A stretch of DNA of 50,131 nucleotides. Source: Fragilaria crotonensis (lineage: Eukaryota; Bacillariophyta; Fragilariophyceae; Fragilariales; Fragilariaceae). The stretch covers positions 1-50,131 of the forward strand of contig JAKSYS010000470.1 in the NCBI GenBank assembly GCA_022925895.1. Reading direction: 5' to 3'. A program made the position numbers and the translations under genes. The notes under the pieces are model-generated. The model was given only the letters and a program-made list of their open reading frames with translations, had not been told where the DNA came from and made no database searches. Positions 6,625 through 48,855 of the stretch are shown piece after piece (position 1 is the stretch's first letter; each line of letters opens with the position of its first letter).

Positions 6625-6625
6625 A

Positions 6626-8666: not shown

Positions 8667-8681
8667 AGGCGTCGGCCATCG

Positions 8682-9614
8682 GTGCCACCAGCACCCGACC
8701 CCGATGGCCCACCACGCCTATTTTCCACCCACCCACCCCGCTCGTCCTCAGACGTTCATTCAATGGCTCGACGGACACACGGGGCGGAACCAGGGCGGGA
8801 TCCGGACCTCAGTAAGAAGGCCGGCACACAACCAGCAGCAGTCCACAGTATGGGGACTGGTGGGGGGAACAGATCAGCCAGTAAGGCGGCACCAGGGCAT
8901 GGCGCGACCAGTATGGCGCGAAGCCTGACCAAGGACCAGTATGGCCCAAACGAGAACACCGCCACACCGGCAGGATCGACAACAAGCGAGGCGTGCAGCC
9001 TGACAGCCGGGGACCAGTACGGCCCCCAGCATGGCGCGACACCGCCGGTCGCCAGGGCCGATATGGCCCACAAGGGGTCGGGAATTCACTCGACGAAAGG
9101 CGGAAACCAGTACCGAAAAGGGCGAAACCCGGCCTCGGAAACGACGTTCATGGCGAACGCCGCGTCGGCCCGGCGGTCGAGGCTGCGGTACGAAGGGACT
9201 CTACAAGCAGCCCGGAGTGCCGAGGTCGCGGTTACCACAGGCGCCGTAAAGAAGGAGACGAGCCAGCCTAAACCAGGACTAGCAAAGCTCCCAACGTATC
9301 AGACCCCCGAGTCGACTGACAAAGGGGAAGGCCCAAATCCAAGTGGCCACCTCACGACGAGCGCCGCCGAACGCGTTAGGAGCGTCCTCAGCCCCGCAGC
9401 GCGCCTCAAACAAAGGCAGACCAACAACTGCCGAGAGCCCATGGTTGTCACAAAAGGGGAGGAGCGAAACGCCAAACGCCTCAGGGAATCGGACGTGAAT
9501 GATCGGGAAACCTTAGGTGAGTACCCGAGAATAGTGAGTTCGTACGGAGACGAAGTCCACCTGCCGAGCGACGCCGCGCTTTTCTTCCGGGAGCCACCGT
9601 GCGGCGTGCGATGA
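8682..9614 (+). CDS. linker ORF between gag and RT, low complexity
   Basis: This 310-codon frame lies between gag and RT and is rich in Gly, Ala, Thr, Ser and Arg. Residues roughly 70-140 hold spaced repeats of a DQYGP-type peptide, caused by a recurring CCAGTATGGC/CCAGTACGGC motif in the DNA between about 8900 and 9070. The tail ends close to the RT frame. It may be the N-terminal region of the pol protein, or simply open because of high GC content; I do not recognise a domain. Confidence 0.35.
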   Translation: MPPAPDPDGPPRLFSTHPPRSSSDVHSMARRTHGAEPGRDPDLSKKAGTQPAAVHSMGTGGGNRSASKAAPGHGATSMARSLTKDQYGPNENTATPAGSTTSEACSLTAGDQYGPQHGATPPVARADMAHKGSGIHSTKGGNQYRKGRNPASETTFMANAASARRSRLRYEGTLQAARSAEVAVTTGAVKKETSQPKPGLAKLPTYQTPESTDKGEGPNPSGHLTTSAAERVRSVLSPAARLKQRQTNNCREPMVVTKGEERNAKRLRESDVNDRETLGEYPRIVSSYGDEVHLPSDAALFFREPPCGVR

Positions 9615-29175: not shown

Positions 29176-29674
29176 CTAAGTCCGTTTAGTCGGATGAGTC
29201 GTCTGCGCTGAGTTTCCGTTATGTCGTCGTTTCGTCCACTGTGTACTGACGTCCTGTCTTTTCTGTCGATGTTTGCGTGTCAAAAGCTTATCGGGTTGGA
29301 TGCGCAGAAGTGGGATGTTGCCGTAGATCATCACGTCGATGTCTAGGTGGTGACTTATGACGCAACGTAGGATGTGGTGGATGTAGTGCTTGTCGAGGCC
29401 ACGGATGATGTTGAGTTCGGGTGGGTCGGCGAGTGTGTTGATGCAAGAGGCAGAGATAGTGGCACTCGTGCGAACGCAAAGCGGTAGGTCGCGAAGTTGA
29501 ATCGTGCCGTTGATTGTGTCCAGTAGCATTGCCTCGGTGAAAAATAGGTCGCGTGACGGATTGTGATGGAAGTCTTGGAACATCCGAAAAGGGTGGTGAT
29601 GAACGACGTTGAGAGGGTTGGGATATTGCAACGGTGGAGCAGGGTGCAGAGGAGGCACTAGTCTGACGCCGCAT

Positions 29675-29684
29675 CACAAGGTGG
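29675..29684 (+). repeat. T1 left terminal inverted repeat
   Basis: CACAAGGTGG, inverted at 33897-33906 and shared with the ends of T2. Preceded by the duplicated AT. The preceding GC also pairs with GC beyond the right end, so GCATCACAAGGTGG is symmetrical at both sides here. Confidence 0.8.
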
Positions 29685-30291
29685 TATATGGTGACTTTTA
29701 AAAAATAAAATGGATTCAATACATATGGTTAGTGGACGGGGATTAATGAATATAAAATATTTAGCACTAACATTTTAAAGTTATATTTCACAGTTTAGTA
29801 TCATACTACACCTTTAAGCAAATACTCAACAAACATCAAAACAAAAAACAAAATAAAACAAGATTTGTCGATTGCAATTACAATTTTCTTTGTGTTTTAA
29901 ACTTTTAAATTGGTTTACATGGCTTTTTTTGGTTTCAAGCAACGTTATACAGTAAATTTGAATCACAATGTAAATTGAATGAATCAATTTAAATGGGTAT
30001 CTGTCACCATATTACAGTCATTTATAACAATAAAAGATAAATGCTATAACTTTATCTGATGAAATGAAATTCTTTAAATTGAGCAGAGTCGTTGTTAAAC
30101 GTTTCTTACTAGCTTGAAATATTGATTGCTTGACAACAATATGTTTATAGTTTAAGTTTCTATGTTTAACAATGACGCTGCATGTCAACATCTCCACATT
30201 CAAAAGTGGAGTTATTACTCCTCGATGCGGTTTCGTTTCAGAATGTTATGGTGATGATCATAATAATTGTGCACCTCAATAAATTGCGTTG

Positions 30292-31690
30292 TTATTCCAA
30301 ATCCCAACATGCTTCCACTGGTTCTAATGCTTCTGCCTGCTCTCCATCGGAGGTGTCTCGACTTCCTTCACCATTTGTTCCTCTCCTTTTCAGTGCAATG
30401 CAGTGATTGAGCAGTTCACGCTCCATATCCATGGCTTGTTCACACGTGCGATCAGCCTTCACCAAGTGATAGAATTCGTTGTACCTTGCCATTCCTTCGC
30501 GGCTCCATCCACCATACTTGCAGTGGCCTGTTTTTTGCGCAGTATACTTGCCTTTCTCCCTTTCCCTCTTGGACTTTTCCCTGCTGCCGGCGCCGCTCCT
30601 TGGTTGTGGTTCTGCTGGTGGGGTCTCGTGCCGCAGTTGTTCCTCTCGCTGAAATGCCTTGAGCCACTTCTCAATATAGTTGTCGTAGAGAAGGAGAGCG
30701 AAAGCCTCGTCGCTGATGGTCACCAACTTGCCGTGTTTTGTGGCCGAGCTCGTCGCCTGCGACACCAATTGCTTACTCTTTTGTACACCCCAGTGCTTCA
30801 GGCCACAAACGCACTCAAGAAATGTTCCATAGAACCAGAGGAATGCTTTTTTCTCCCTTTCCGTACTTGCTCTCCTCATTTTTGTAATTCATCAATTGAG
30901 AACATCCATTCTATCTTCCTTGAATTGTTTTAGTTCTCTCATCATGATGTTCTTCCCCGCCTGCTCGCATGTGCTCCTCTTGCTGTTCAACGCATGGTTA
31001 AAAACACTTTCATATAACATCTGGAATTTCACACGATCTCGGTTTGCCACACACTCGTGGTCCATCACCTCCTTGAAAGCCTTACCAAACATGTGTTCAT
31101 TGCTGATAAACTTGACGACTCGAAACATATGTTTTCTGACGTAAGTTGTGACCCTATCTGCAATGTTCTCCTGGTGTTTTCCGACATGGACGATTCTTTT
31201 GCTGACATACCTCTTACTCGTATCAACCCTTCAAATTCTGCGCAGCTCCTGCTGGCGATGTTCTTCCACGTTTTGCAGGAACAACATAGTCGTCATCATC
31301 ATCGTCATCATCGGACGAATGTAATTCCTCGGCACCCCGGCAGGGAAGCATTTTGTCCAACTCCTATCCACTCTCGTTCTTGGTCACTATTTTCTTCTCC
31401 GTCACTTGTGTTATATGTGTGGTCCGGGCTACTAGACCGTGCCGTAGCCTCCTCGTTGTCATGGTCCTCTTCTTCGATATGTTCTCTTTGCCGCTTTCCT
31501 CCTTTTGACGATTCGGCAATTTCGTCTTCGCCACTGCCGCTGTCTTCATCCTCATATAAAGATTCGAGTCTGATTTGTCAGATACAGTTCCGTTGTTCAT
31601 GGCTTCAGTTACTCTGTTGTAGTAGTATACAATTGTGGGAACAAGTTTCATCGCTTGCGGCACACAAGAAAAGTTTTGAGCGCGAAGCAC
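30292..31690 (-). pseudogene. gene A of T1 (decayed paralogue of T2 gene A)
   Basis: Three minus-strand frames (31690-31364, 31128-30892, 30879-30292) match gene A of T2 in order. Shared blocks include NSKRSTCEQAG (T2: NTKRSTCGQAA), EKKAFLWFYGTFLECV (EREAFLWFAGELLECV), VTISDEAFALLLYDNYIEKW (VTVSDEAFALLLYENYIDKW) and GHCKYGGWSREGMARYNEFY (GYCEYGGWSEDGVLRFNELC). Two consecutive in-frame TGA codons (30889-30894) separate the last two parts, and a homologue of the T2 block before KFITSGEHF is found in another frame near 31130-31200. The function is unknown. Preservation in both elements suggests that it matters for the transposon, for example as a DNA-binding accessory protein like those of CACTA elements; that is inference. 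Confidence 0.75.
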
Positions 31691-31699
31691 TTTTGTTCA

Positions 31700-32779
31700 C
31701 AACTCCCATTTAAATTTGAAGAGTTGGGCACACATGTTGTTTGTATGCTTGACACAGAGTCAATTTGAATGGGTGTGTCGACAGAAATTATTACTAAAGG
31801 CACTGTACAATTGTTTGTGGCAAGCTACCGTTGTAAATAAATATTGCTGTGTCGGGGATTGAAGGCTTACTAGTTATATTCCTGCAATATATCATGATGT
31901 GTATACGTTTATATGGCAATATTTTGCCGCTAATCGTTTTTGTAACCGCCACAATTACTTCGTGGGAATACTCCGATGTTTGCGCATCATGTACACTCAC
32001 TCGGTACGATGAAGATGCGCATGTGCTTGGTATATATGATTTGTTACTAAGTGCTGCGAGTTTTTTTAGGTGCTGCGATGCGTCAGTTCTCAGTACTAAG
32101 GTAAATTACCATTATCATCTTAAGTACTGGCTGGCTGGTGATGCATTCGACTTGGAATTTCTGTATGTGACAAGAATGTGTGCCTGAATACACATAAGGA
32201 TTTAGCACATCTATGGCTACGTTAGTTAGGGTCTTGTTGCCATGGCAAAATGAAGAAGATGAAAAATAAATGACTAACACATGTTTATTTGTTTTTGTAC
32301 TTAGACAGTTTTGAGGGGAAGGAAATTTTGGCCTGAAGTCCCATGGGCAACGCGTGCCTTGCGTAGTATTGGTTATACTGGAATCGACGTGAAATGCACT
32401 ATTTTGCACGAGTTGCTTTCACAACAATTTATGGACATCCACACTGCTGTTGCACTCTTTGTGCCCAGCACATACGTATACCACATTCATGCTTGTTGTC
32501 GTCTGAAGAGGAGAACTGCTTGCTTTTCTGGCGTGTTGGAACTCTGGTACAATTGCCTTCTCCCCAGACAGGGATTTGCAAATCTGTCCTTTGTGACGAC
32601 GTGTTGCCTTATCACTCAACGTGAAGAGGGGGAATTGCTTGTTTTTCTGGCGCGTGCGAACTCAGGATTGGTTGTTCCCCCCAGACAGGGGTGAACAACT
32701 TGTCGTTAGTGATCGCGTTGCCGCCTTATCGTCGGTATCATCATGTTTGCAGATCCTTCACGAGATCGCGCCAGGATAG
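31700..32779. other. T1 interior without recognisable gene; 118-bp tandem repeat
   Basis: No coding region is supported. 32505-32622 and 32623-32740 are two diverged copies of a 118-bp unit (GAAGAGGAGAACTGCTTGC... and GAAGAGGGGGAATTGCTTG..., both with TTTTCTGGCG and CCCAGACAGGG). In T2 the corresponding place holds the transposase core, so this is where T1 has lost sequence. Confidence 0.6.
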
Positions 32780-33394
32780 CTAGCGCGCGGCGTACGCTTC
32801 CGGCGCAGAGCTCTGTTTCAGCCATGGGACGCAATCCGCGTGCGGTTGGGGTTGGTGCTGCAGGCCATGACATTGCTGGCAGTTCTCTGCCTTTAGATCG
32901 GACTGCTGGAGGAGTTCCTCGTACAATTCAAGGACTCCTTCGTCAGGGTCTGTCGCTCCGTTCTCAACCAAATCAGGTGGCGTCGTCAACGACTCTTCCT
33001 CACCAAAAGGATTGACGTCATCGTCGTCGTCCAATTCATGCTCATCGGGGTCATCGTCACCATCTAGTGCTTCAACAGAAGCAGCACGACCAGCATCCTG
33101 AACAGAACTGAATTCGAATGGTGCAGAAAATCGTTGACGACTGTGACCCTCCTGGTGTCCAGTAGTTACTTGTCCTGTGAGGATATGTGAGGACAACGAA
33201 GCGTGGTTTTGCGCGGCCTTGGCAGCACTCCGGTTAATCAAAGTACCACCAATACCAGCAGACGGATCAATTGTGCTCTTCCGAGAAGCATAAATGCTGT
33301 TGCAAACAAGATTGTGATTCAGGTGTACCTGGATTCGCTTGAAGGGTTTGTGACATCCGTCGCACAACGTAGTAGAGGATGTGCGTTTCGGCAT
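32780..33394 (-). pseudogene. gene B of T1: zinc-finger N-terminus of a transposase, truncated
   Basis: ATG at 33392-33394. The protein starts MPKRTSSTTLCDGCHKPFKR and continues IQVHLNHNLVC, a C-x2-C...H...C zinc-finger-like module at residues about 11-32 that I associate with the N-terminus of DDE transposases in diatoms; T2 gene B has CISCGRFVVAGPMGLSRHLS at the same place. An acidic stretch follows (residues about 110-155) and LELYEELLQQSDL, after which the frame runs into unrelated sequence and stops. The DDE core is absent. It could still encode a DNA-binding fragment of about 200 residues. Confidence 0.7.
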
Positions 33395-33896
33395 GTGAAT
33401 CCTTGTAAAGAGAGAAGCAATGCACAGAATTGTCGAAGATTCAACAATGAACTCAAAAGGTCACTGGACCTGTTGAACAACAGCCATTAAATGCCAGAAA
33501 TACGGTAAAAGTTTTAGACAACGCCATTCACTGTGCCTCGGAAACCTAACTGGCGAGTATGCCTCAATATCAGTGAATTTAGAAAACACCAAGTCAAATT
33601 TTTGAAAAAATGGTTGCAGCAGTGAAAATCAATTCGTTATATCCATCACTTTGTTGATTCAATCAGAAATATAGTTATAGTTTATATTTTTTTGTTGATA
33701 TCAAACCATATAGATTGATTATAATTCGAGAATTCACTGATAAAATTTGATAATTAATATATTTTAGTATTATATCATTATAACATGTAGAAAGAAACCA
33801 ACTATATACAACTATTGACTATTTAAGTCTAAAAGTAACCACTTCAGTAAACATAAACTGTCATTAATGACTACATGTATATCAACTCACAAAAAC

Positions 33897-33906
33897 CCAC
33901 CTTGTG
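33897..33906 (-). repeat. T1 right terminal inverted repeat
   Basis: CCACCTTGTG, inverse of 29675-29684, followed by the duplicated AT at 33907-33908. The next inner bases on the minus strand, GTTTTTGTGAG, resemble TATATGGTGAC of the left end only loosely. Confidence 0.8.
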
Positions 33907-34650
33907 ATGCGGGTTGTTGTAAAGCTGTGCTTGGTACCTCATTAGGTTCACCAATATCTTGGTTAGCGTCGCCATTATTGTCAAGATCATCCTCAACAAT
34001 GTCCATTGGTTTGGGATCAGGGTTGTTTGCAACTTCTGGTAACGGATCTGGGTCGGCATCAGGATAAAAGTTAACAGTTTCCCTAGTGGAGTCATTATTA
34101 CTGCAAGAGTAACAATGATTGTCAACAAAATCATCAACATCAGCATCAGCTGGGGAGCTTGGCAAATCTTCCACCTTGATTGGGACAGGGTGCTGAACAT
34201 CCAAATAGGTTAAACTCTCAGAGGAAATGGTCGGATTGTGGGCTCTGCAGGCCCATTGTTGTGGATTGGGGGAGGAAACCGCGGTACGAATGACAGTAGC
34301 TGCATTTCCCGTGTCAACGGCAGCGCAGTACAAGGGCGATGCGTCAGAACCGATAAAGGGACGTTTCGCAAAATCAGGAATCTCCAAAATGACGTCAGGA
34401 ATCGGGCTTGACGTGGAAAATTTGCAAACAGAATCGAGGGTTGTTGAGTTGTTGTCGGAATTTGGATTGGGATGGGACTCCCCAAAGGAACAGGGACTGT
34501 ACTGGGGAAAGTACCAGGGTAGTTAGGAGACGTAGGCGGGGTGGCCTTGGGAGTTTTGGGGGAATCCGGAATGTTTGGTTCAATCGTGGAAAAATCAGTA
34601 CAAAAATTCTGAGTACCGGATCCGTTGTCACTGTTCTCATCATGCGTCAT

Positions 34651-34931
34651 AGTTTTTCGTCGCGCGTCCGCTGAATTGCTGGAGGTTCCGGAATTTCGGC
34701 TCTTTTATGTGTCTCGTACCTTTTACGCAGATTATCTACCAGAAATTTGTTCGACAAACATCTAAATAATTCCTCGTTTCCAAAATGATAGAATATCTTC
34801 TGTTGATACACTATAATTAAAACCGTGCTTTATTTTGGAACTGTTTTTTAAATCGTTTGTTATGACAAGTACGACATCGATTCAATGTCTTGGATGAACT
34901 AGTACTATGTAGGGATATTTAAAAAAGGCGT
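34651..34931. other. intergenic between the T1 target ORF and the palindrome array
   Basis: AT-rich, with no gene seen. It presumably holds the 5' flank of the minus-strand ORF starting at 34650. Confidence 0.4.
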
Positions 34932-35051
34932 TGGCTCTTGAGCCACTGGCTCTTGAGCCACTGGCTCTTGAGCCATTGGCTCTTGAGCCCCTGGCTCTTG
35001 AGCCATTGGCTCTTAAGCCACTGGCTCTTAAGCCACTGGCTCAAGAGCCAA
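34932..35051. repeat. array of eight 15-bp interrupted palindromes
   Basis: Eight head-to-tail units of TGGCTCTTGAGCCAC type. Each unit carries GGCTC and GAGCC arms around TT and so can fold on itself. Units 6 and 7 have TTAA at the centre, and the eighth (35037-35051) carries the loop inverted (CTCAAGAGCC). A related four-unit array lies 400 bp to the right. Confidence 0.95.
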
Positions 35052-35189
35052 TTTACCTCGTCCAACTAGTCGAGGAACGTGTTTTCTTTAAATGAGAACT
35101 CGCCACACGGGGAACGGAAAAAAATGACAGGTCATCTAAGGTCGATGGTATGCGTATGCGTTACGTCTCCATTGATACATATGTATTTC

Positions 35190-35335
35190 GGCACATACTA
35201 CATTTTCTGTAAGCATCGGCGAAACAATATACAGGTATGAAGAGAATACATTCATACATATAGGCACATAGAACATTTTCTGTAAGCATCGGCGAAACAA
35301 TACTCAGGTATGAGGAGAATACATTCAGCGAATGA
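35190..35335. repeat. 73-bp tandem repeat, two copies
   Basis: Copies 35190-35262 and 35263-35335 share CATTTTCTGTAAGCATCGGC and AATACATTCA blocks with few differences. They lie between the two 15-bp arrays. No coding capacity is evident. Confidence 0.85.
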
Positions 35336-35444
35336 CAAGGAGTGGTATGACATAAAGTGCGAGCACTTTTGAGGACGAGCTCTATGACACAGACAAAACG
35401 TGTGTTCTTGAGTTTGACTTCGCCGGGGGCTGTTGTTCAGCCGT

Positions 35445-35504
35445 TGGCTCTTGAGACAACGGCTCTTGAGCCAATGGCTCTTGAGCCAGCGGCTCTTGAG
35501 ACAA
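35445..35504. repeat. second array of the 15-bp interrupted palindrome, four units
   Basis: Four units of GGCTCTTGAGCC / GGCTCTTGAGAC type with the same 15-bp period as 34932-35051. It is a multiple of three, so both strands stay open across it (for example LAQEP repeats on the minus strand), but I see no reason to call a gene. Confidence 0.92.
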
Positions 35505-36273
35505 CGGCTGCCGACACCTCAAATGTCGAATATCCTTAAGTAGGATTTTCATAAAACGTCGATTCCGTTGTCGCATAGTCTAATCTCAAGTTCTTTAGTT
35601 GAAGCTCAAAATTTGTCACGTCATGAGATTGATGTACCTAATGATCCGGACATTTGAAGTGATGGAACGTGGAATATTTGTCGGGCGTGACGAACAAAGT
35701 TGTAGAATTAGTATCCGTAGCCAGTAGTATACACTTATAGGTAAAAGAGCCGAAATTCCGGAACCTCCTGGTGTCCATCAAAATGCCCGAATTACTCCCA
35801 GAACTTTGAACAGTCATTTCTCGAGATCTATCGCTTCGATTTTGCTCAGATTTGGGGAGGGCACTAAAAAGGTTGTACTGTGGCGCCTGGCATCGCGTGG
35901 TATGGCGTGCAAGTGCGTGCGCGATCATGGTGAGTGTGTTTTGAAGAGACATCAATTGCTCGTTTCCAATGGCTCTGATGACCTTGTCAACGTCGTCTTG
36001 GATCTCCCCCAGGGTATAAGAGGCTTTAATTGGTTCCTCATCTTCGGTGAAAATGCCAATTGTGCAAACGTAGCGAGCCATGTTGATGGGATAAAATCTG
36101 CGAGCGCGAGGCCTGCACTTCGAGGAAACCATAGGAGGCTAAATAAGCTCCTGTGGCTGGTGGCGTTTGGATGGCGGCATTGGCGTCCGCGATGTCGATT
36201 GTGGAGTGTGGATGTTCCATGTTCTTGTTGTATTTATTGTTGCTGACCTTGGTGGTTGTAGCAAATGTAGTCC

Positions 36274-36570
<297 letters not shown>

Positions 36571-36722
36571 CCTCCTCATTATCATCTGCAGGTCCAATGT
36601 CTTTGTAGTTATCATTGGTAGATGCATAATGCTTTGTAGTTTCATTTTCTGGTTCAGTAGTTGTGCCCTTGTTGTTGTCATCCGTGGTGGTTGAAGTAGT
36701 TGGAATAGTTGGAGAAGTGCAT

Positions 36723-36745
36723 CACAAGGTGGCGGGTGGTACATG
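36723..36745 (+). repeat. T2 left terminal inverted repeat
   Basis: CACAAGGTGGCGGGTGGTAC followed by ATG; matches the reverse complement of 46087-46109 at about 19 of 23 positions. The first ten bases are identical to the T1 ends. Confidence 0.8.
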
Positions 36746-36777
36746 TAACATATTTGTTACATAGACTGTTTTTTTTT

Positions 36778-36983
36778 GAGTCCGGTACAGTTCGAAATAT
36801 CTTATTACAATGTACCATATTGATTTTCCTGTTTATTTTTTTGTGCATGTACCAATATTTTTTGAGTCCAGTACATCGTCCCGACGTGCATGTTACATGT
36901 AAAATTTTTTTTATTGTACCATTGCCTGCTTACTGTCCGTAATTTGTTTGTCTTTGTACAATGTTTTTTTTTAGTCCAGTACA
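36778..36983 (+). repeat. three subterminal GAGTCCRGTACA repeats
   Basis: GAGTCCGGTACA at 36778-36789, GAGTCCAGTACA at 36864-36875 and TAGTCCAGTACA at 36972-36983, each directly behind a run of T. A GAGTCCATGTA match sits next to the right terminus (46082-46092). Spaced subterminal repeats are known as transposase-accessory binding sites in CACTA elements; here that role is inferred. Confidence 0.7.
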
Positions 36984-37224
36984 GCGTTGTAACATTCATT
37001 CTACACCAATCACCTTTTTGTCACTGCACCACGCATGCTTTGGATGTCCATTCTTTGTTACAATGTATCATCTTGTCACAGTACCATTCCTGTATAATAA
37101 TACTGCTTTTCATAGTACTGGGTCGCTGCGTTCAATTGTTGCTAGTTACAACTCAATAAATGCATTGACTACTTGTTCATTCCGGTCCAAACTCCTTTGC
37201 GAATCACTGTAATCCACCTCCCTC

Positions 37225-38922
37225 TCATTGCTCCTCCACTCCCTGTCCTGCTTGTTGCCGAAGACTTGCCATTAGCCTACCCTCAGCCTCCCTTGCATTT
37301 CGACTGGCCCTGTCCTCTTGCACCATTTGGCACAATTCATTGAATCGCAGCACACCGTCCTCGCTCCAGCCTCCATATTCACAGTACCCAACGCTACTTC
37401 TTGTGTACCTCCCAGCAATCCGTTTTGACCTCTCTTCTCCCCTTCGATCCTCGTGGTACCTCTTGATCCACTTGTCAATATAATTTTCATATAGAAGCAA
37501 CGCAAATGCTTCGTCCGAAACCGTCACAATCAGTTCTCCGGTATCGTTTGATGTTGCTTCTGATATCATTGCCTTATACTTTGTCCTCGCCCCCCATGCC
37601 CTCTTTCCACTGACACATTCCAGCAATTCACCAGCAAACCACAGAAAGGCCTCTCTCTCCAGATCAGACTGTGACTGCCGTAGCTTGCAAAGGATATCCA
37701 TTGAATAGGGCGGTGGCTCCACTTCATCAACATGGTTTTTAATCTTCAGCAGTTTCATCACTGCTTCAGTAGCAGCTTGCCCACATGTGCTACGTTTAGT
37801 ATTCAGGCTTCCAACGACACATGTTTTGTAGATCCTCACAAATTTGGAAGCATCAGCTGGTTTCTCCGAATCCACAACCACCTGCATTACCTTGTCGAAG
37901 TGTTCCCCGCTTGTAATGAACTTGCATTTCCGGAAGACTTTCGTTTTCACCACAATCTGTATGCGATCGGCAACATGTTTCTGCTGCATTGCTTTTGCGG
38001 CTCTGTAGGACATGGCTCGTCTTCCGGCTTCATGTAGTAGTGTCCGATCTCCTGCCCTGTACCTGATATCTTGTCCAACACCTTCGTGATGTTCCCAAAT
38101 GGACTCCTGCTGGTTCTGCACGTGGTGTCTCTGGTGCATTTCCTGATTCATTGGAGGTTGCTGCTGTCGAGAGACCAACAAGTCATCATTGAAGTCGTTT
38201 CCTCTGGATGGAGGCAATCGTCCATTCTGACGAACATGGTTGTCTGACTGTGTGCTTGTCCAATGATTGAGTGGAGCTTGTGTCCTGTTCTGGTCACGTG
38301 CAGTTTGGATGGGTCTGTCTCCGAATGGAGGTCTGCCTCCGGTAGATGGCGGCCTGCCACCGACTTGCATATTTGCAGTACTGTTGCTTCCACCCTGCAG
38401 CATATTCCCATTGTTCAGGTGATATGAAGTGTCACCTGGAATGTCTCTGGATGGAGGCATGCCGTCGACTTGCACATCACCAGAAAAATGGGGTCCTCCC
38501 TCCTGTTGCTGGCGATCCCGCTCATGGTGACCTTCTCCTACTGCATGAGAGTCATCCTCACTACTAGAGCAGTTATCTTGTGAAAGGGTGTCTAGTTCCT
38601 CCAATACAGACTTAGATGGTGAGCTTCCTCTACTCTCGTTGCCATTTGCGTTCAAATGCCGTTCCAAATTTTGATTCAAGTTGCGCAGACTCCTCCTCTG
38701 CTGTACTCTCCTTCCCTGCACATCTTTTGACCTACCTCCTGATTCTGGGTCTATGTTTTCATCATTCCAAACCCTCTTTGGCGGCATTCCTGTTCGTCTT
38801 AATTGCTTGTTTCCTCTTACCTGGTCGTACAATGTTTCAGACAATGTGTTGGAGTTTGTGTTTCTTTTCATGTTTTGTGCGCTCCTTTTGTTGGGCGGAT
38901 GCGAGGACAACCGGTCGTACAT
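37225..38922 (-). CDS. gene A of T2, unrecognised transposon-associated protein
   Basis: An intact 565-codon ORF, ATG at 38920-38922, beginning MYDRLSSHPPNKRSAQNMKR. Residues 1 to about 300 are hydrophilic, rich in Gln, Asn, Arg and Pro, with repeats of a GGRPPSTGGRPP kind, and look disordered. From about 310 the sequence is ordered and conserved with T1: KVFRKCKFITSGEHFDKVMQ, NTKRSTCGQAATEAV, EREAFLWFAGELLECVSGKR, VTVSDEAFALLLYENYIDKW and GYCEYGGWSEDGVLRFNELC. I recall similar C-terminal blocks in diatom hypothetical proteins but no known function. It lies in T2 upstream of nothing else on its strand except the transposase 3.5 kb away. Its promoter and first codons are duplicated at 39734-39785. 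A DNA-binding or recombination accessory role is possible but unproved. Confidence 0.8.
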   Translation of the reverse strand: MYDRLSSHPPNKRSAQNMKRNTNSNTLSETLYDQVRGNKQLRRTGMPPKRVWNDENIDPESGGRSKDVQGRRVQQRRSLRNLNQNLERHLNANGNESRGSSPSKSVLEELDTLSQDNCSSSEDDSHAVGEGHHERDRQQQEGGPHFSGDVQVDGMPPSRDIPGDTSYHLNNGNMLQGGSNSTANMQVGGRPPSTGGRPPFGDRPIQTARDQNRTQAPLNHWTSTQSDNHVRQNGRLPPSRGNDFNDDLLVSRQQQPPMNQEMHQRHHVQNQQESIWEHHEGVGQDIRYRAGDRTLLHEAGRRAMSYRAAKAMQQKHVADRIQIVVKTKVFRKCKFITSGEHFDKVMQVVVDSEKPADASKFVRIYKTCVVGSLNTKRSTCGQAATEAVMKLLKIKNHVDEVEPPPYSMDILCKLRQSQSDLEREAFLWFAGELLECVSGKRAWGARTKYKAMISEATSNDTGELIVTVSDEAFALLLYENYIDKWIKRYHEDRRGEERSKRIAGRYTRSSVGYCEYGGWSEDGVLRFNELCQMVQEDRASRNAREAEGRLMASLRQQAGQGVEEQ

Positions 38923-38941
38923 TTGATTTCAAATCACCGTA
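38888..38941 (-). promoter_or_regulatory. gene A start region, first copy of a duplication
   Basis: TTGGGCGGATGCGAGGACAA and the following bases through the start codon and CAAATCACCGTA recur at 39734-39786, offset 845 bp. Beyond that both copies continue with TGTACATGCTGTATGTACAG and TATGTCYCCACGTACGCATTG-like sequence. It therefore includes both the translation start and upstream DNA of gene A. Confidence 0.8.
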
Positions 38942-39443
38942 CTAGTACTCCTTGTACATGCTGTATGTACAGCTATATTTACTACGTTTATGTTCTATTG
39001 TATACATGGTCACGCTATACATATGTCCACGTACGCATTGCGTTTATGTAGAACCTATTTTCGGCAACTTTGGTGTTTTCTTGCACCAGTGCAACTACTT
39101 CTGGCGTGCTTTTTGCACCCGCAACGCTAAAAGCCAAAATATTGCAATTTCCTCACACAGTATCATTCTACTGCGTCAAAGTGGATGTCATCGCATGTCG
39201 TCATCGGACGAAACGAAGATGTGAAGTTTGCGTGCCATACCAGGTACTACGAAACGCATCAAGTACAAGTACAGCAATGATTGCTTCACAAGAACAACTT
39301 TGATTGGAAAATTCATACTGTTGCACTCCGTTAAATTCCTACTGTTCATACTACAGTACAAGTAACCTGATTCGAATGGTTCGACAATGCATTCGGATGA
39401 TTCGATTACATTACTCCTTTGAGTCGAGCAAGTCAAAAACAGG

Positions 39444-39612
39444 CACGCTATTCATTCTATTTTCATTCTTTTCACCATTGATATAGCGTGTCAAGAATGA
39501 AATAGCGTGACCAAAATGTCAAAAGGCCCAACCGGTGGTATAATTTTTGGACATTTTCGTCACGCTATTAGACCATTTTTGCAAAATAGCGTGACGGGTG
39601 GGGATGCTCTTA
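39444..39612. repeat. fold-back sequence with inverted AATAGCGTGAC motifs
   Basis: AATAGCGTGACCAAAATGTC (39501-39520) pairs with GACATTTTCGTCACGCTATT (39550-39569) at 19 of 20 positions. Further copies of the motif lie at 39444-39452 and 39483-39490 (inverted pair) and 39583-39596. The right edge reads GGGGATGCTCTTA. It resembles a small fold-back or MITE insertion inside T2; exact ends are not clear. Confidence 0.65.
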
Positions 39613-40547
39613 TGTTCTATTTTAGACATGGTGTATACATATGTCTCCACGTACGCATTGCTATGTTACTGTATGTAGTACGTTTAGTACCACGCATGGT
39701 ATTTGAATTTTGTTTGTACCAGCATGACGTTTTCGTTGGGCGGATGCGAGGACAACCGGTCGTACATTTGATTTCAAATCACCGTATGCATACTATTACT
39801 CCCTGTACATGCTGTATGTACAGCTATATTTTCCTACGTTTGTGTTCTATTACGTTTAGTACCTCGCATGGTATTTGAATTTTGTTTGTACCAGCATGAT
39901 GTAGATGTCTGTGCTGGGTACTTTGAGGCATAGTACCTGAATTCAATTCTACACCGGTTTGCAACGCATTTTCTCAATGCAAAGATATATAGTCACGTAT
40001 GTAGTATTTCGAACGAAATTTTGCGTGCATATGCGCATATGCTCCCACTATGAGCAAGTTGTAGTATGCATATCTTTGATACTTAGCACAGGTTGATACG
40101 TACTACGTATCAATCGTCTGCAACATGTCAGTGCCCGACGGTTATGATAGTCGTTTTGCACGTATTGCCAGTGTAAGCTACAGTTATCAAATGGTTTCCA
40201 AGTTTCAACTTATTCCCTATGTAACTAAGTTTCTTCATACATGGCATATATCTAGATACCTTCTTTGCATGTATGCGTGTACATGGCAAATTCCTATGTA
40301 ACTAAGTTTCTACATATATGGCATATATGTAGATACCTTCTTTGTATGTATGCTTGTACAGCGCAAATTTGTGGTTTTTAAGCGGCAAAATGAAGTCCCA
40401 CATTGCAGTCTTGTTGTTTGTGCAACATATGTTGCTTGAACTAGCCTGTACGTAGTCCTCTAGTACTTTTTCACCGCTCTGCTTTTTAGTTTCTTTCCGC
40501 AATTTGTAGCAATTAACACACGTTCACAGGTTTGACGAATACGATCT
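39613..40547. other. non-coding stretch of T2 with duplicated gene A 5' sequence
   Basis: 39734-39860 repeats the gene A start region and its upstream flank. 40200-40360 contains two similar copies of TTCCTATGTAACTAAGTTTC and ATATATCTAGATACCTTCTTTG-like sequence about 80-90 bp apart. No gene is supported. Confidence 0.6.
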
Positions 40548-41712
40548 TTGTTGCCATCCAGTAACAATCAAGATCAAATCGTCGCTTCCATCCAGTGACA
40601 CGGTGCTTAACGTTGCGAGAGGAATTGTCGTTCCGTCGCTTCGCTGACGCGGTGCCGCTTAACGTTGCGAAAGGAATCTTCGTCGCCCTTACCGACGTTG
40701 TACTTGAGGTTTCAAAGTGATCGTCGCTGCCATCCAGTGACGCGTTCGCATCGCTGCAAAGAAACAACGTCGCGAAGAAACGAATCGTCGTTGCCATCCA
40801 GTGACGCTCGATTGTGTGTTGACGCCGCAGTTCTTGACGTTGCGAAGAGGATCGTCGTTGCAATCCAGTGACGCGGTGCTTGACGTTGCGAAGAATTGTC
40901 ATCGCCATCGCTTTGACGTTGCGAAGAAACGAATCGTCGTTGCCATCCAGTGACGCTCGATTGTTTGTTGACGCCGCGGTACTTGACGTTGCGAAGAGAA
41001 TCGTCGTTGCCATCCAGTGACGCGGTGCTTGACGTTGCGAAGAGAATTGTCGTCGCCATCGCTTTGACGTCGCGAAGAAACGAATCGTCGTTGCCATCCA
41101 GTGACGCTCGATTGTTTGTTGACGCCGCGGTACTTGACGTTGCGAAAGGATCGTCGTTGCCATCCAGTGACGCGGTGTTTGACGTTGCGAAGAGAATTGT
41201 CATCGCCATCGCTTTGACGTTGCGAAGAAACGAATCGTCGTTGCCATCCAGTGACGCTCGATTGTTTGTTGACGCCGCGGTACTTGACGTTGCGAAGAGA
41301 ATCGTCGTTGCCATCCAGTGACGCGGTGCTTGACGTTGCGAAGAGAATTGTCGTCGCCATCGCTTTGACGTTGCGAAGAAACGAATCGTCGTTGCCATCC
41401 AGTGACGCTCGATTGTTTGTTGACGCCGCGGTACTTGACGTTGCGAAAGGATCGTCGTTGCCATCCAGTGACGCGGTGCTTGACGTTGCGAAGAGAATTG
41501 TTGTCGCCATCGCTTGACGTTGCGAGGAGAATCGTCGTTGCCATCCAGTGACGCGGAGCTTGACGTTGCGAAGAGAATTGTCGCCATTGCTTGACGTTGC
41601 GAAGAAACGAATCGTCGTTGCCATCCAGTGACGCTCGATTGTTTGTTGACGCCGCGGTACCTGACGTTGCGAAGAGGATCGTCGTTGCCATCCAGTGACG
41701 CGGTGCTTGTTG
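40548..41712. repeat. minisatellite with about 150-bp higher-order unit
   Basis: The phrase GCGAAGAAACGAATCGTCG recurs at 40772, 40921, 41072, 41222, 41373 and 41599, that is at intervals of 149-151 bp and one of 226 bp. Each unit is built from three related subunits carrying TGCCATCCAGTGACGC and TTGACGTTGCGAAGA. As 150 is divisible by three, all minus-strand frames stay open for many hundreds of bases (348, 241 and 163 codons). I treat these frames as a by-product of the repeat, not as a gene. Confidence 0.93.
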
Positions 41713-41719
41713 TTCTTAC

Positions 41720-42445
41720 AATTATGTCTACTTCACCATTTGGGAGACGCTCTTGCAATCATACTCGGGAATGTGGCTCCTCTCTTGTGAGAACCGCAAA
41801 CGCAAGGCGGACTCTGATGTCTTGGATGTTCAGGATCTCGCCTCGCCGGTACGTCGTGTGTTGGTGGCTTCCCATGTGGTTGGGGGCCGAACGTTTCCTG
41901 GAGCTTTCGCGTTATATCATTGCGGGTACAAAAATCCACGTGTCTTTTGCGGTCTTTCGTCTGGAGATGAGTCGCATTTTCGGATCCCGCGCGCCGCAGA
42001 CATTCTGCCCTAGTCAAGTGCAGGCTGCGGCGGTGTTGTCGAAATGCATTCCACGTCATCTGTCGGAGTCTTTCACCAAGCGCTTTCTCCATCATCAGGG
42101 ATTGCCCACAGCCGGTTCAAAGTGGGTGCATGATGCCATCCTGCCTGGAGCACAGGTTTGCAAAACCTTCGTTTCCAGTATTCACGAAGCACTAGTGGAT
42201 ACCTTTGGTGTTGGTAATGTTTCCGTGGAACAGTGCCAATTCATGAAGTGTGATCGCGACAAGACGTGTGGTGTGGCTGTTCCTCACGTTCTTGAGATCA
42301 TTGTTCTCGATGCTGTCTTGGCGCGTTCCAAGAAAGTTCCAAGGCCATTGTCTTCCACCCGCGCTACGGTTGATACTCCTGTCAAGATGCGTATTGATGA
42401 CATTTCCCTGAAGGAGCCCTGTCACGACCACCGTTTCAGGGCGTT
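41720..42445 (+). CDS. unrecognised plus-strand ORF of T2 (gene C), frameshifted
   Basis: Protein-like sequence lies in two overlapping frames: 41753-42013 (GMWLLSCENRKRKADSDVLD, VVGGRTFPGAFALYHCGY) and then the frame open to 42560, from about 42010 (QVQAAAVLSKCIPRHLSESF, KWVHDAILPGAQVCKTFVSS, FGVGNVSVEQCQFMKCDRDK). One shift near 42010 would join them. It is convergent with the transposase and absent from T1. I recognise no family; it may be cargo or part of an older insertion. The final 40 codons of the second frame run into the 27-bp repeat of the gene B tail and are probably not part of it. Confidence 0.4.
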
Positions 42446-45400
42446 GGTCGCTGTGCTTCCGGAGGCGGGTGTGTTTTACTGCCACCGGGAGAGGAGGAAG
42501 GTGTTTTACTGCCACCGGGAGAGGAGGCACTTTCGTCGGATTCGGGTTTCTCACGAGTGATGACTACTTCTCTGTGCTTCTTGTGAATGAAGGAGTCCCA
42601 CGTTGTTGACCACTCAGATGGGGAGAGAATCATGAATAGGTACTTGATGTCGGGAAGACTTTGCGCATTGTTGTCGGGGGGCGAATCGCTGAATGTATCG
42701 GGAATGGCCACAGTAGGTCTCCATATTGCATTGACATGGACAAGGTAGAGGATTGGTTGGAGAGTTCCGGGGATTAATGAGAGCTTGAACTCTCGAAAGA
42801 TGGATCTGTCAACTTCCTCTTCCACATTGTTGTGGTCATTGACTTCTTCGACGTCAAGGTCTTCCACATCACTGCTGTCATCATCATTGTCAAGCACAAC
42901 CTCATTGTAAGACTCAATAACCGCATAAAAACCAGGCGTTTTGACGGCAACAGATTGTCCTGAGTGGGGAAACTGATACGGGAACCACTTTGTACATTGT
43001 GAAGGTTGAGAAGGTGTGAATTCAAGAAGGAAGAGATCATTGAATCCGGACCACTTGACCAAAGCATAGTCGAACCATGGTTTTGGTGATGATAGTTGGG
43101 ATGGGCACGATAGATCTGTCCATCAGCAGATTTGTATTCAGTGTGACAGTGAAGAATTGGCGTAGTCAAGTGAGGGAGGCAATACGATGCCAGGGTGTTG
43201 GTAACATGTGAATTCAGGTGGTACTCCTCAGGAATGGAGTCGTCAACTTTCTTCTTTGATGCAAAACGGCGGCACTTTACATTACCATGAGCATCCCTCT
43301 CCATGGAATACCTCTTGCCTTGCAAGCGATGAGTGGTGGGAGGCAAGTTGGTGCTTGAGAGGAATCGCTGACACTGGAAACAGACTTCCTAATTGCAAGG
43401 TTCTCAACATAACGCATAGCAGCCTGGACTGTAAATGTTTCTTGACGCTTTTGGGTATTCCGTGTGGTATCTTTGGAGATGGTGATGTGAGCAGACTCTG
43501 CATAGGAACTATTCATAACCTCGGGGACACCAAAATTGAGGATGTCGTCTGCAATATGCAACACAAGATGTGTTTTGATTGTTGCATTGCCCATGGCACC
43601 GGCAAGTCTGGGGGCAACAAACTTCAGGGTTCGCATCAGCGACGATGTTGCATAGCCAGATCTCAATGCGGATAGACGTGGGATATGAGGTTGCTTCAGC
43701 CAGGCGTGCCATTCAAGCAAAGAACTGAGTAAAAAGCTTCCAGTCGTTGACAAAATCAGGGTTGCTCAGGTTCATGTCAACATCGGGCTGATGAGACGAT
43801 GCCTTTTTTGATTGAAATATTTCTGAGAATTGAGTGGTGTACAATGAAATCAGCATGATGAACAGGCATCCCGCATATTCATGTCCAGGAATGTTAGCGG
43901 TGGAGGAAAAACCCTTTGTGACATTTGTCTTGGGAATCTGACGATCACTTTGCCGGCGTACTTGCTGGTTGATGTCCAATAACAGATTATTATACCTCCT
44001 TGCAAATTCGGATGTCTTTCCAATTTGCTTAAAGAACGAGTCAAGAACATTTTTGAACCAGCCTAAAAGAACCAAGTGAAGGATCTCGCCAGGGCAGGCA
44101 CCAAAAATGCCGCGATCGTTGTGGGCGCCAAATCGGACAGAATCGAATGCATTGATCAGAAACTGTTGAGAATTGGACTTCAACAAGTCAAACTGTCGCT
44201 TGGGGTGACCATTTCATTGACGGACTTGGGTGTGCGTTTTGGATAGGCACGTGCCTTGGAATAACCTGATTTCCCAGTTGGACACTCGCAAGCACGACAT
44301 AGCTGTGCAACACCTGCTGTGCGAGATCGGTAATGACCACAGAGAGTGTCATGTCCCTCAGTGTCTCCAACAATGAATGGAACGTAAGGGTGCAAGACAA
44401 CAGGGAAAGATTTACCGCGATAACAAAGGTTCCATTTCATACCTGTTTCTTGGAGTTGAAGATATCCTGACTCACGAAGAATGAAGTCAATTTGAAGGTG
44501 ATATTCATTTACGCGGTAGCAAGCATCAGAAACAAGTGAAGATGATACAATTGGGAGTGGCGTATTGGCTTTTGGAACACCAGGAGAGGAATCACGTTCC
44601 TTCACAGGAGTTGTGTTGATGAAACCCAACACCCTCATTGCGGCGGGTGTCTTGCGAATGTCATGCTTCATCAGTCCATAGGAAAGAACAATGGGTTCCA
44701 AACTCAACCTACCACCGCCACCAATGTCGCATGTTGTCTTATCAATTGCAAGTATGCATGGAAGTAACATATCCTCAGGATTCTTGATAAGCTTGTCGTA
44801 GGTTTTCAGGTAGGACATGCCAGTATTGATATCACCCAAAACTGACCCGGACGGTTTTGCAAATGGGTCAAGGTGGTGATTGTTGGGGTCGTGAAATATA
44901 TAGTTCTCGTCCTGGTTAAGGTCCGGACAAGAAAGAAGAGAACTGAATACGGCATGGGCACTAAAATAAACAACCTCAATGTGGCAGTTTGAATAAGGGA
45001 GGTAGAGCTCTTTCACGATGGGAGTCAAAGAATCGAGGCCAACACGTCCACGCAGCTTGTCCATAACCGTCTTTCGTGAAGTGATCGGCATGTCGCGAAA
45101 AATGTGTCCTTCTGAGCAGGATCTAACAGCCCACTTCATAACCTCGTCATAAGCAATCATTGGAGCTTTGAGTCTCTTCAGGGTCTGAAGGAGATCAATC
45201 TGAACCTTTTCTTCAACAGAAAACAACGACAGTTCAAGGCCATCATCGTGATCATTTGACCATGGATCCTTGAATGTATCAGAAAAAGAAGGGGCATCGC
45301 CAATCTCAGCAGCAGACATAGGGACACTGCTGTTGGGATGGTTGGATGCAAAGGTGGTGGAGTCCTCAGCGATGGATAGTAAAGGGTCATTTTCATCAAC

Positions 45401-45907
45401 ATCAGCAAATGACGAGGTACCAACAAAATCATCCTCAACGTGCAAGGGTAGTAAAGATATGTGATCGTTGTTTGCATGGGCACCAGTAACAGATGACAAG
45501 GCAGCATGAAAGCTCGCATTGGTTTGTTGGTGATGAAGGGGTGGTGCGTCCATTATGCCACCATGAATGGAAGGATCTTTTGAGTAATCCAAGGAACACT
45601 GAGGATGCGTTGAGAGATGACGGGACAGACCCATTGGGCCAGCAACAACAAATCGACCACATGAAATACATTGGTCTTTCTCTGGGGATAACATGAGGAC
45701 TTTCTTGGCATTTCTCCTGCGTGAATTTTCGATCCGACGTGAAAGCCTGGCCTGGAGGCTCATGGTGGTGGCATCCAAATGAACAACAGACAAGGACGAG
45801 CGACTTAAACAGAAAACCCTTGCATGTAGGTTGAGAATGACACAAATGAAGTGGTACACCGATACCAAGAAAGTTGCGAATACAAAAAAAGAAACAGAAC
45901 ACTTCAT
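42436..45907 (-). pseudogene. gene B of T2: zinc-finger DDE transposase (CMC/Plavaka-like), frameshifted
   Basis: Frames 45907-44180, 44186-43713, 43753-43277, 43346-42774 and 43062-42436 form one protein of about 1100 residues. In order: CISCGRFVVAGPMGLSRHLS zinc finger (with HPQC); VEEKVQIDLLQTLKRLKAP; LLPCILAIDKTTCDIGGGGR with the probable first Asp; PFIVGDTEGHDTLCGHYRSR with a second Asp and the nearby CRACECPTG Cys cluster; FGAHNDRGIFGACPGEILHL; RRQSDRQIPKTNVTKGF; and THLVLHIADDILNFGVPEVM followed by SSYAESAHI with the probable Glu. A missing base in a C run near 44210 accounts for the first shift. Similar blocks are recalled from diatom proteins; the CMC/Plavaka label is inference. The natural start may be the Met before SLQARLSRR (near 45763). 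Confidence 0.75.
42470..42525. repeat. 27-bp tandem repeat, two copies
   Basis: GTGTTTTACTGCCACCGGGA followed by GAGGAGG occurs twice in a row. On the minus strand it encodes a repeated SSPGGSKT peptide in the tail of gene B. Confidence 0.9.
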
Positions 45908-46086
45908 ACATAGAGGTGTTCACTATATGCATGGATATGTTTGAAATACAAAATTGGCGTACCATAGGTGGTACACTTATTTTGAATGGTTTTGGTTGAA
46001 AATTCCATATTAATGTAAAATACATAAAGGTACAAATTGTAAAAAGTTTGGACATAATTTGTAAAATAATGTACTATGTAGGAGTC

Positions 46087-46109
46087 CATGTAAAAGCCGC
46101 CGCCTTGTG
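46087..46109 (-). repeat. T2 right terminal inverted repeat
   Basis: Ends CCGCCTTGTG at 46109, followed by the duplicated AT (46110-46111). On the minus strand it starts CACAAGGCGGCGG, like the left end but with C for T at position 8. Confidence 0.8.
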
Positions 46110-46936
46110 ATGTGGCTTGCATCTTTGCAGCCATCTTGGTTGGAGTGGTAGCCCTGTGGCTAATGTGGGTGCCCTGATGGAATGGAGCTGCAATCTTGTT
46201 GTTGCGCTCATGGAGGTGGAGGTTGCAATCCTCCTGGATGATCTGGTCAAAATTGTCGTCGGAATTGGTGGCATGATAGGCGGCTTGGGGACCTTTCTTG
46301 ATGGAGGTGCGCCTCTTCTTCTTGGTTGGTTGATCCTGATCGTCATCAGGGGTAGTGTTGGGAGAAGGAAAACGGTGGACACGGCGATGCTTGGATCCTC
46401 TGGGAGATCCGAAAGCTAAGGCTCCATGATAGAGGCCAGGATAAGTGGGCGTGTCGGGAGGGACAGGATTTGCGCCGATTGGGGCGCAAACGTCGACGTT
46501 ATCGTCGAAGGCATCGAGGTCTTCGGCCTTACGGGCGGACCTAGTGATGCGAGGGGCAAGGGTGGGGGGGGGCGTTCTTCATGGTGGACTTGGGGAAGCT
46601 TCTGTTCTTCAATGGGGAGTTTAAATTCGCTGCTGGCAAGTCCAAAAGGAGAGGGAAATTAATAGCAGTTAAACTCAAATTGTTAACGGCCGTAGGAAGG
46701 CTCGCCCAATGATTGTGCATGTCGGGCTAGTAATTTCTCTCGACGGTAGAGCCTTGGACCGGTGGTTTGAGGCGAGCAACCATGACAGTGTTCGTGTGAT
46801 CGGTACACAAGTACTGGCCAACGGTAGACTTAAGGTTAGTACGACATAGAAGTCTAGCGTCGGACTTCACGGGTGAGCAAGCGAACCTGACGGATCGTCC
46901 AGCTTTGGGCAATGGTGTTTTGTAGACATACACCAT

Positions 46937-47729
46937 GGCGGTAGTAGATTTATTGATACAAGGATGTAGAAATGTAGGAAACTAAGTAGTAAAGGCCTTT
47001 ACTGGTTTTGGTTTGTGGAAATTATAAGTTAAATTAAGGATGAAAAATGAAGATGAGACTAGCAACAACATTAGTTGGAGTCTCACAAATGAAGTGTGGT
47101 CTTAGTCCCACTTCCTGAGTGGTGTTTGGGAAGTGTTGTCCATACTAGTAAAAAGAGTGTTGTTGAAGTTATCAACAACACTCATGATTTGAACTACATA
47201 GGAAGTGATTCAAATCATTTTTGTGTTGCAGACCGGTACCCATAGAGTTCTGATTCTCAGAATTCTACTGGAACGGGTCACGGACAGACTAAGGAAAATA
47301 AGGGACTGTCTACTGTAGTACCGTATGGTATTTAACCTTACAGTAAGTACTAGAGACAGTGTGACAGAGTGACAGTAGATTCCTAACATGCATTGCCAGT
47401 ACACAGTGCAGTAGTGGGCTGTAGGCATCTTCGAAGCTCGCACCACGCGATTTTGAATTTTGACCACAAAAAACGTTCCCTTGGTGGCCGGACCACCCGG
47501 TCTGTCTGGCACAACGGCACAACGCTACATGTATCGAAATGTCCATGGGCAACGCACGAAAGTGCGCACATGCACGCCCAAGCAAACTCGCGCAGCCTCC
47601 AAAATTGGAGCGCATGATTCGTGACCATCAAATCAGTCTGTCTCGAGTCTAGGAAAGGAAAGGCGCAGTCTTTTTCGTGTGGTTGAGAGAGTTGAGTGCC
47701 TACTTCTTGCAAACTCCTAGGTTTCAACC
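46937..47729. other. intergenic, eIF5A upstream region
   Basis: No gene is supported. A perfect 12-bp-arm hairpin lies at 47155-47183 (GAGTGTTGTTGA / TCAACAACACTC, 5-bp loop). The last 300 bp must hold the eIF5A promoter and 5' UTR; I see no TATA box that stands out. Confidence 0.45.
47155..47183. other. 12-bp-stem hairpin
   Basis: GAGTGTTGTTGA (47155-47166), loop AGTTA, TCAACAACACTC (47172-47183), a perfect inverted repeat. No T-run follows that would suggest a terminator-like role. Confidence 0.85.
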
Positions 47730-48579
47730 ATGTCCGAAGAAGAGCACGATTACAACATTGAGAACGCCGATGCCGGCGCCTCTGCTACCATTCCCATGGA
47801 AGCCGGGCAGATCAAGAAGGGAGGGTAGGTGACATGATGATACGTCCGCAACGAGCATTTTCCATTTCCCCTGGAAGGCACTGGTTTTCACGTACCGTCG
47901 TACTATGGCTACGGAAGACTGCCTACAATACCGCGTGCGAGTACTGTTGTTGAGCAACAACTGATAAATATTTGCTATCCATCAGTCACCAACTAAAACT
48001 GACTTGAGTGTAATGTTGGGAGTCCTGTGATCACTCCCCTCTAATGTCCTGTTGGGCTTGTCGAAGCAACGGTCAAAGGAACATGAACTCTTGCCTCATT
48101 CCTTCCTGTGCTTGTCCGAACCACAACCTCATAACATTGGATTCACGTATGTTGGCACTCAAACTCACTCCTTATCGTGCCTCTGCTTCTTCAGATTCAT
48201 GATGATCAAGGGAAAGCCATGCAAGGTTTTGAGCATTTCCGTCTCCAAGACTGGAAAGCACGGCCACGCCAAGTGTAACTTCACCGCCGTCGACATTTTC
48301 ACCGGAAAGAAGTTGGAAGATATGATTCCATCCACCCACGGAACCAGCGTTCCTATTGTCAACCGTACCGAATGGGAGATTATCGACATCGGGGAGGACG
48401 GAGAGCTCACCCTCATGGACGAAGGAGGCACCCAAAAGACCGACCTTAACCTCCCTGAAGTTCCCGAGGGACTTGCCCAAGAGATCAGGGACGCATGGAG
48501 CGACGGAGAGAACACTGTCAAGGTTGCGGTTCAGGCTGCCGTCGGAATCGAGCAGGTTATCTCCTTCAAGAAGGAGTAG
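47730..48579 (+). CDS. EIF5A: translation initiation factor 5A (two exons)
   Basis: Exons 47730-47824 and 48195-48579 give 159 residues; the intron 47825-48194 has GT...AG ends (GTAGGT donor, CTTCTTCAG acceptor) and splits a Gly codon. eIF5A binds the ribosome E site and helps peptide-bond formation at stalling sequences and termination; it works only when one Lys is turned into hypusine by deoxyhypusine synthase and hydroxylase. The modification loop SKTGKHGHAK is intact, with the hypusine Lys at position 53. Other family marks are KGKPCKV, VDIFTGKKLEDM and PSTH. The acidic N-terminus (MSEEEHDY) is usual. The length fits eukaryotic eIF5A (about 155-160). It is convergent with panB, 276 bp apart, and appears intact. 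Confidence 0.97.
47825..48194 (+). other. eIF5A intron
   Basis: 370-bp GT-AG intron between the KKGG and FMMIKG coding parts; both flanks match the conserved eIF5A sequence, which fixes the junction. A polypyrimidine stretch (TGCCTCTGCTTCTTCAG) precedes the acceptor. Confidence 0.93.
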
Positions 48580-48855
48580 TGGACTAAATCAGAAACAAGT
48601 ACTACTATCCGAAACGCACACGCACACCTACTCTTTCATCGCCCTCGTCCAACAATTTCATCATCATGTGTTTTGATGAAACGAATCGAATCAAGATTCA
48701 TTTTCTCACAGCGCCTTCTCGTACGCACCAGCAAGGATAGAAACAACCATAAGCTAGTCTGTCTGAGTTGGTAGTCAAACCATATATCTGGCGTTCTCCA
48801 GGTACCTATCTTTTTGACAAGGCCTATCCTGGCAAACTCCATTTCGACGAACCGA

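Follow-up and report, generated by a model that had tools for sequence, protein, structure and literature searches.

In Agaricomycotina fungi, DNA transposons of the PlavakaB group are bounded by the termini CATCA..TGATG and produce target duplications of 2 or 3 bp, some carry an accessory gene, and all Tet-bearing Plavaka families belong to this group, as stated in the available part of the report describing them (PMC12730594). Outside of the fungi, the accessible text of one report mentions Plavaka in an ichthyosporean (PMC11244446), and that of another describes EnSpm-Plavaka elements in the green alga Auxenochlorella, where insertions are polymorphic between haplotypes (PMC12633428). The stretch of DNA considered here (hereafter the window) comprises positions 1 to 50131 of contig JAKSYS010000470.1 of the diatom Fragilaria crotonensis and holds two elements, T1 (29672-33909, 4238 bp) and T2 (36720-46112, 9393 bp), both assigned to the minus strand. 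With a probability of roughly 90%, T1 and T2 are cut-and-paste Plavaka-type DNA transposons, a type with CACTA-related DDE transposases, and belong to the PlavakaB group. They share termini, a 2-bp duplication and a Plavaka transposase with the fungal elements and, like those of Auxenochlorella, are of the cut-and-paste kind in an alga; they differ from the fungal elements in their diatom host and in that their fuller relatives carry a conserved inverted third gene together with a second open reading frame (ORF2).

An original prediction, made from the sequence of the window, described two related transposons with inverted repeats that end at the motif CACAAGGYGG and are flanked by a duplicated AT. 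Exactly four sites in the window match this motif, and these are the four predicted ends (shuffled sequences average 0.22); AT flanks the motif on both sides of T1 and T2. That the two are related transposons with inverted repeats is borne out. The placement of the ends is not: each has to be moved outward by 3 bp. The terminal inverted repeat is the 13-bp CATCACAAGGYGG, which T1, T2 and 17 other distinct elements carry in inverted orientation at their two ends, all of them from pairs picked by their CACAAGGYGG ends. The repeat occupies 29672-29684 (plus strand, CATCACAAGGTGG) and 33897-33909 (minus strand) in T1, for which the limits derive from comparison of paired elements and a check of the reading frame, and 36720-36732 (plus strand, CATCACAAGGTGG) and 46100-46112 (minus strand, CATCACAAGGCGG) in T2.

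Support for the longer ends comes from a survey of the F. crotonensis assembly holding the window (62.1 Mb, 881 contigs), in which ATCACAAGGYGG has 79 matches as compared with 18 for a reversed control, while the shorter CACAAGGYGG has 299 matches as compared with 261. When all 75 ATCACAAGGYGG matches outside the window were read with their flanks, the preceding triplet was CAT in 64, TAT in eight, AAT in two and GAT in one; the 11 termini lacking CAT do not, as judged by eye, continue like family ends, and neither do a few of the 64. Homology between copies thus runs on by CAT/ATG beyond the ends first proposed. CAT at 64 of 75 AT-preceded termini is expected if the terminal repeat is longer. 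No preference for a CATGC target, as had been suggested, is seen. Nineteen convergent pairs chosen by eye, together with T1 and T2, gave 21 candidate pairs, two of which were set aside (one with a right end lacking CAT, one with flanks identical to those of another pair), leaving 19 distinct elements. Directly outside CAT..ATG, an exact 2-bp repeat is present in 17 of these 19, as compared with 27 of 342 mismatched pairs, and a 3-bp duplication is present in none (0/19). The duplicated dinucleotides include TG, AT, GG, TT, GA, TA, CG, CA and TC. The predicted size of the target duplication therefore stands while its predicted sequence does not: the 2 bp that are duplicated vary between elements, being CG at T1 (29670-29671 and 33910-33911) and TG at T2 (36718-36719 and 46113-46114).

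Empty sites lead to the same ends. For the 17 elements other than T1 and T2, the genome was searched with flanks joined across one copy of the 2 bp, each search scoring about 40 places and matches being judged from coordinates. Joined flanks of five elements (on contigs C108, C195, C263, C279 and C392) match the genome along their full 220 bases at 100%, and those of a sixth (C252), whose target is itself a repeat, at 99% over 225. Five further elements have junction-spanning matches at 82-96% identity, one equal and full length and four unequal in length or partial; the remaining six have no junction-spanning match among the roughly 40 places scored per search, which does not amount to absence. 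For T1 and T2 themselves, the empty sites are paralogous copies of a host repeat, designated R. Under the corrected ends, 16 of the 17 distinct R copies read at the T2 site show no gap near the junction and the other differs by 1 nucleotide (nt), whereas under the AT duplication the copies are shorter by 6 nt in 16 of 17 and by 7 nt in the other. At the T1 site, the AT duplication leaves R copies shorter by 9 nt in all ten distinct copies read. Empty sites, expected by the original prediction to rejoin at AT, instead rejoin outside CAT..ATG.

The original prediction had also observed that frames interrupted by T1 and T2 continue beyond each insertion, and this holds: flanks joined across a single AT give open minus-strand frames of 370 (T1) and 383 (T2) amino acids spanning the junction. 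Under the corrected ends the frames are of 368 and 381 amino acids and are still open. This test is blind to which ends are right, because 3 bp more per side removes 6 nt and the frame is kept. Given that both flanks are already open, the chance of a frame match is, by our own estimate, about 1/3 per element; the two matches, though real, are therefore modest evidence and do not make chance as unlikely as was proposed. Ends set by a frame test together with flanking identity can be wrong by a multiple of three, which is a pitfall.

The original prediction missed that the two targets belong to one multi-copy repeat; two separate host genes as targets are ruled out, both targets being inside R. 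Joined T1 flanks match 28 other genome places at 89-91%, and joined T2 flanks match 29 at 88-93%, mostly on contigs shared with the T1-flank matches; more distant relatives of R follow below these close matches. In one copy of R (L128), the T1 and T2 targets fall in two overlapping ORFs. T1 and T2 have inserted separately into two ORFs of a single copy of this unclassified repeat, of which there are about 28 copies. In the window, R lies on the minus strand and is made up of a part left of T1 (29285-29671, 88% identical to L128), the interval between T1 and T2 (33910-36719, including stretches unmatched in L128 and a TTG-repeat tract) and a part right of T2 (46113-47388, 91% identical to L128) reaching a fixed edge, TGTTAGGAATC, common to the copies. 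This is the only edge shown to be fixed; in L128, R occupies 2476-7860. Comparison of the fixed edge with the rest of R found no terminal repeat, and five ORFs of L128 gave no Pfam family above cut-off. Several R copies are situated near contig starts. The long TTG-repeat tract (36274-36570), directly left of T2, reads as poly-asparagine in the minus frame, and L128 has no such long tract.

Within T2, the transposase (42436-45907, minus strand) is broken into several overlapping ORFs, one of which (44180-45907) matches PF18759 Plavaka (E-value 8e-07, 29 bits, cut-off 26.3) as its only family match. At least 86 matches to this transposase exist in the genome, and some relatives keep a frame open for more than 1,100 codons. 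The D, D, C(2)C, H(3)H and E motifs are all present and regularly spaced in five of 29 transposase homologues, the remainder, many of them partial, being without one or more of the five; in T2 the motifs are divided between two ORFs. The termini CATCA..TGATG, a 2-bp duplication where PlavakaB allows 2 or 3, the Plavaka domain in T2 and the C(2)C and H(3-4)H motifs, which in PlavakaB lie between the second D and the last E, fit a placement of T1 and T2 in PlavakaB, as suggested by termini, duplication and domain, while the TGT..ACA termini of PlavakaA are absent from these elements. ORF2 of T2 (37225-38922, minus strand, 565 amino acids) matches no known family and has a confident helical C-terminal domain: a structure predicted with 46 of 91 homologues alongside the window ORF has confidence values mostly above 90 beyond about residue 310, and comparison of the model with PDB gave 88 matches, none at E <= 0.001. 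A truncated third gene (42093-42503, plus strand) is matched over 137 amino acids, 98% identical to residues 27-163 of a 739-residue protein of a fuller copy on contig C609.

T1 is an internal-deletion derivative. Its two parts match the ends of a 9.3-kb copy (L129, contig C571) at 98.2% and 98.3% identity, positions 1-3248 of T1 corresponding to 23-3280 of L129 and positions 3237-4238 to 8355-9355, such that about 5.07 kb with the transposase core is missing. Letter-by-letter comparison of the alignment to L129 places the deletion junction approximately at 32908-32919. What is left of coding sequence is a remnant of ORF2 with internal stops (30409-31218, minus strand; 43% identity to ORF2 of T2, E-value 7.8e-44) and an ORF (32780-33394, minus strand) that matches the start of the L129 transposase frame. 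T1 and T2 have little DNA in common, but their ORF2 regions are related: the three longest stretches, when translated, are 34-42% identical. CACTA/EnSpm elements, too, have deletion derivatives and subterminal repeats. The left 400 bp of T2 (36720-37119) contain the tetramer GTAC 10 times and the right 400 bp contain it five times, as compared with 3 per kb in the middle, and such clusters are candidate subterminal transposase sites.

Several points weigh against this reading of T1 and T2. Two of the 19 distinct elements lack any duplication, and at the T1 site the R copies fall 3 nt short of the corrected model in ten of ten distinct copies, differing by these further 3 nt at the right CG; one has to suppose a 3-nt variation among copies that are about 91% identical. 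None of three longer transposase relatives passes the PF18759 cut-off (P0014 reaches 24.9 bits; P0008 and P0006 have no match), and a precomputed annotation lists PF18759 in only four of 29 homologues. The predicted transposase structure, with 23 of the 29 homologues as input, is poor (mean predicted local distance difference test score 43.5) and does not confirm the fold.

Alternative accounts fare less well. That the elements end at CACAAGGYGG, duplicate AT and prefer a CATG or CATGC target agrees with the AT found before every end of the paired elements and with the excess of ATCACAAGGYGG over its reversed control, but R copies lack the extra bases this requires at both the T1 and T2 targets, the six empty sites at 99-100% identity fit the longer ends, and the variable duplications lie outside CAT..ATG; this account we regard as scarcely credible. 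Hardly more probable is that T1 and T2 are CACTA/EnSpm elements proper. Plavaka transposases are related to those of EnSpm and the two share CAC-like ends, according to the available part of the fungal report (PMC12730594), and the ends here do contain CACAAGG; EnSpm elements, however, produce a 3-bp duplication, which is seen in none of the 19 elements, and here the duplication is of 2 bp, the termini begin CATCA and the T2 transposase ORF matches no family but Plavaka. Finally, that T1 and T2 inserted independently into ORFs of a single copy could reflect a preference for R or for each other's neighborhood. This is unlikely: the two elements are of different families, and nesting by chance would suffice in DNA rich in repeats.

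With T1 and T2 read as PlavakaB-type elements, a mechanism of movement can be proposed. The transposase most likely binds the 13-bp ends and excises the element, catalysis presumably being carried out by the encoded enzyme; the element would then be joined to a target whose strands are cut 2 nt apart, and gap repair would yield the 2-bp duplication of whatever sequence was there. T1 may be mobilized in trans, and any roles of ORF2 and the third gene are putative.

In fuller relatives of T1 and T2, the third gene lies opposite in strand to the transposase; it encodes 739 amino acids in the C609 copy, while in the C571 copy it is divided between two frames. A count of gene layout drew, among the matches listed, on all 86 transposase rows, 61 of 69 third-gene rows and 66 of 87 ORF2 rows, those left out being further fragments on contigs already entered; after neighbors were merged there were 67 transposase, 55 third-gene and 66 ORF2 loci. 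Thirty of the 55 third-gene loci lie within 15 kb of a transposase, on the opposite strand in 30 of 30, and 29 lie within 15 kb of ORF2. All three genes are present at 24 loci, each with an identical order and orientation (transposase, inverted third gene, ORF2 helical protein; 24/24). Seen from the transposase, a third gene is within 15 kb at 30 of 67 loci and ORF2 at 36 of 67. Among the 25 third-gene loci lacking a transposase, some may be explained by contig ends, by a limit on the number of candidates listed or by more distant transposases. The sequence CATCACAAGG is found near the transposase start at seven of 30 transposase loci scanned with 1500-base flanks, these being six distinct places, all of T2's family. 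In the scans made, neither the third gene nor ORF2 gave a family model above cut-off.

The third protein itself was aligned from 85 homologues and the T1-family protein; 71 covering more than 150 of 231 residues were kept, making 72 rows with the query, and 15 were left out. H482, D484, D487, W506 and D540 are present in all 72 rows, R542 and R545 in 71, H546 in 70 and H533 in 63, the other nine having D instead. These residues resemble the HxD...H...R set for iron and 2-oxoglutarate of the 2-oxoglutarate dioxygenases. In a separate alignment (A3) of the query and 44 of the 85 homologues, one of 45 members matches the Tet-like family PF20515 (E-value 0.15, 12.5 bits as compared with a cut-off of 27) over residues 76-211, spanning its HxD (141), H196 and R205; the other 44 have no match at E <= 0.5, and none of the Tet models scored as high as its cut-off. 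A search of the genome with PF20515 and PF12851 gave no match, a result that does not prove absence as the PF20515 control was silent too. Sequence and profile searches of PDB returned nothing significant, and PHROGs (five third-gene proteins) and NCBIfam (six) returned nothing over the HxD domain or above cut-off worth following. A match of one homologue (P0200) to PF20691, a Tet-associated glycosyltransferase family (E-value 0.018), is below cut-off and outside of the HxD domain and was not used. The nine sequences lacking H533 weigh against a dioxygenase identity. The third protein resembles the TET/JBP dioxygenases carried by fungal transposons, as described in the available part of the report (PMC12730594), in its HxD, its distal H (63 of 72 rows) and its R (71 of 72), and it likewise sits in PlavakaB-type elements; it differs in having no Tet model above cut-off. 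From its residues, the third protein may be a Tet-like dioxygenase, at slightly below even odds. The wider proposal, that the PlavakaB elements of diatoms are a lineage with three genes, the inverted third of which encodes an unrecognized Tet-like 2-oxoglutarate/Fe(II) dioxygenase, and that T1 and T2 are derivatives that lost this domain, is likewise tentative, falling somewhat short of an even chance; in T2, the HxD domain is not among the residues matched by the truncated gene.

Further features accompany these elements and the window. A minisatellite-like array of about 150-bp units lies inside T2 (40640-41721) and is present in the C609 copy too. Short relatives of about 1.3 kb (L061, L066, L067, L068, L077 and L078) have ends 77-84% identical to T1 and likewise a 2-bp duplication. 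End pairs about 23 kb apart (L087-L090) have identical flanks on contigs C22 and C40, from which it appears that the assembly probably holds both haplotypes. Elsewhere in the window, 24285-25178 has a weak match to the reverse transcriptase family PF00078 (E-value 0.00099, below cut-off) and is perhaps part of a retroelement, while 48052-50106 contains ordinary host genes for translation factor 5A (plus strand) and, in two ORFs, ketopantoate hydroxymethyltransferase (minus strand).

The kind of element described here is already known; what is new, as far as the searches reach, is its occurrence in a diatom and the conserved layout of three genes. Among the papers listed, and with most subscription journals outside the literature searched, no report of Plavaka in diatoms was found by title, and those on Plavaka together with Tet do not, by title, concern diatom transposons. 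The PlavakaB terminal signature, reported from mushrooms and their kin (PMC12730594, available part), is now found in a diatom, where empty sites fix the ends to the base. Should the proposal for the third gene be true, Plavaka-borne base-modifying enzymes would exist outside of the fungi, and if that gene does encode a Tet-like dioxygenase, these elements would offer a natural case for asking whether algal transposons counter DNA methylation themselves.

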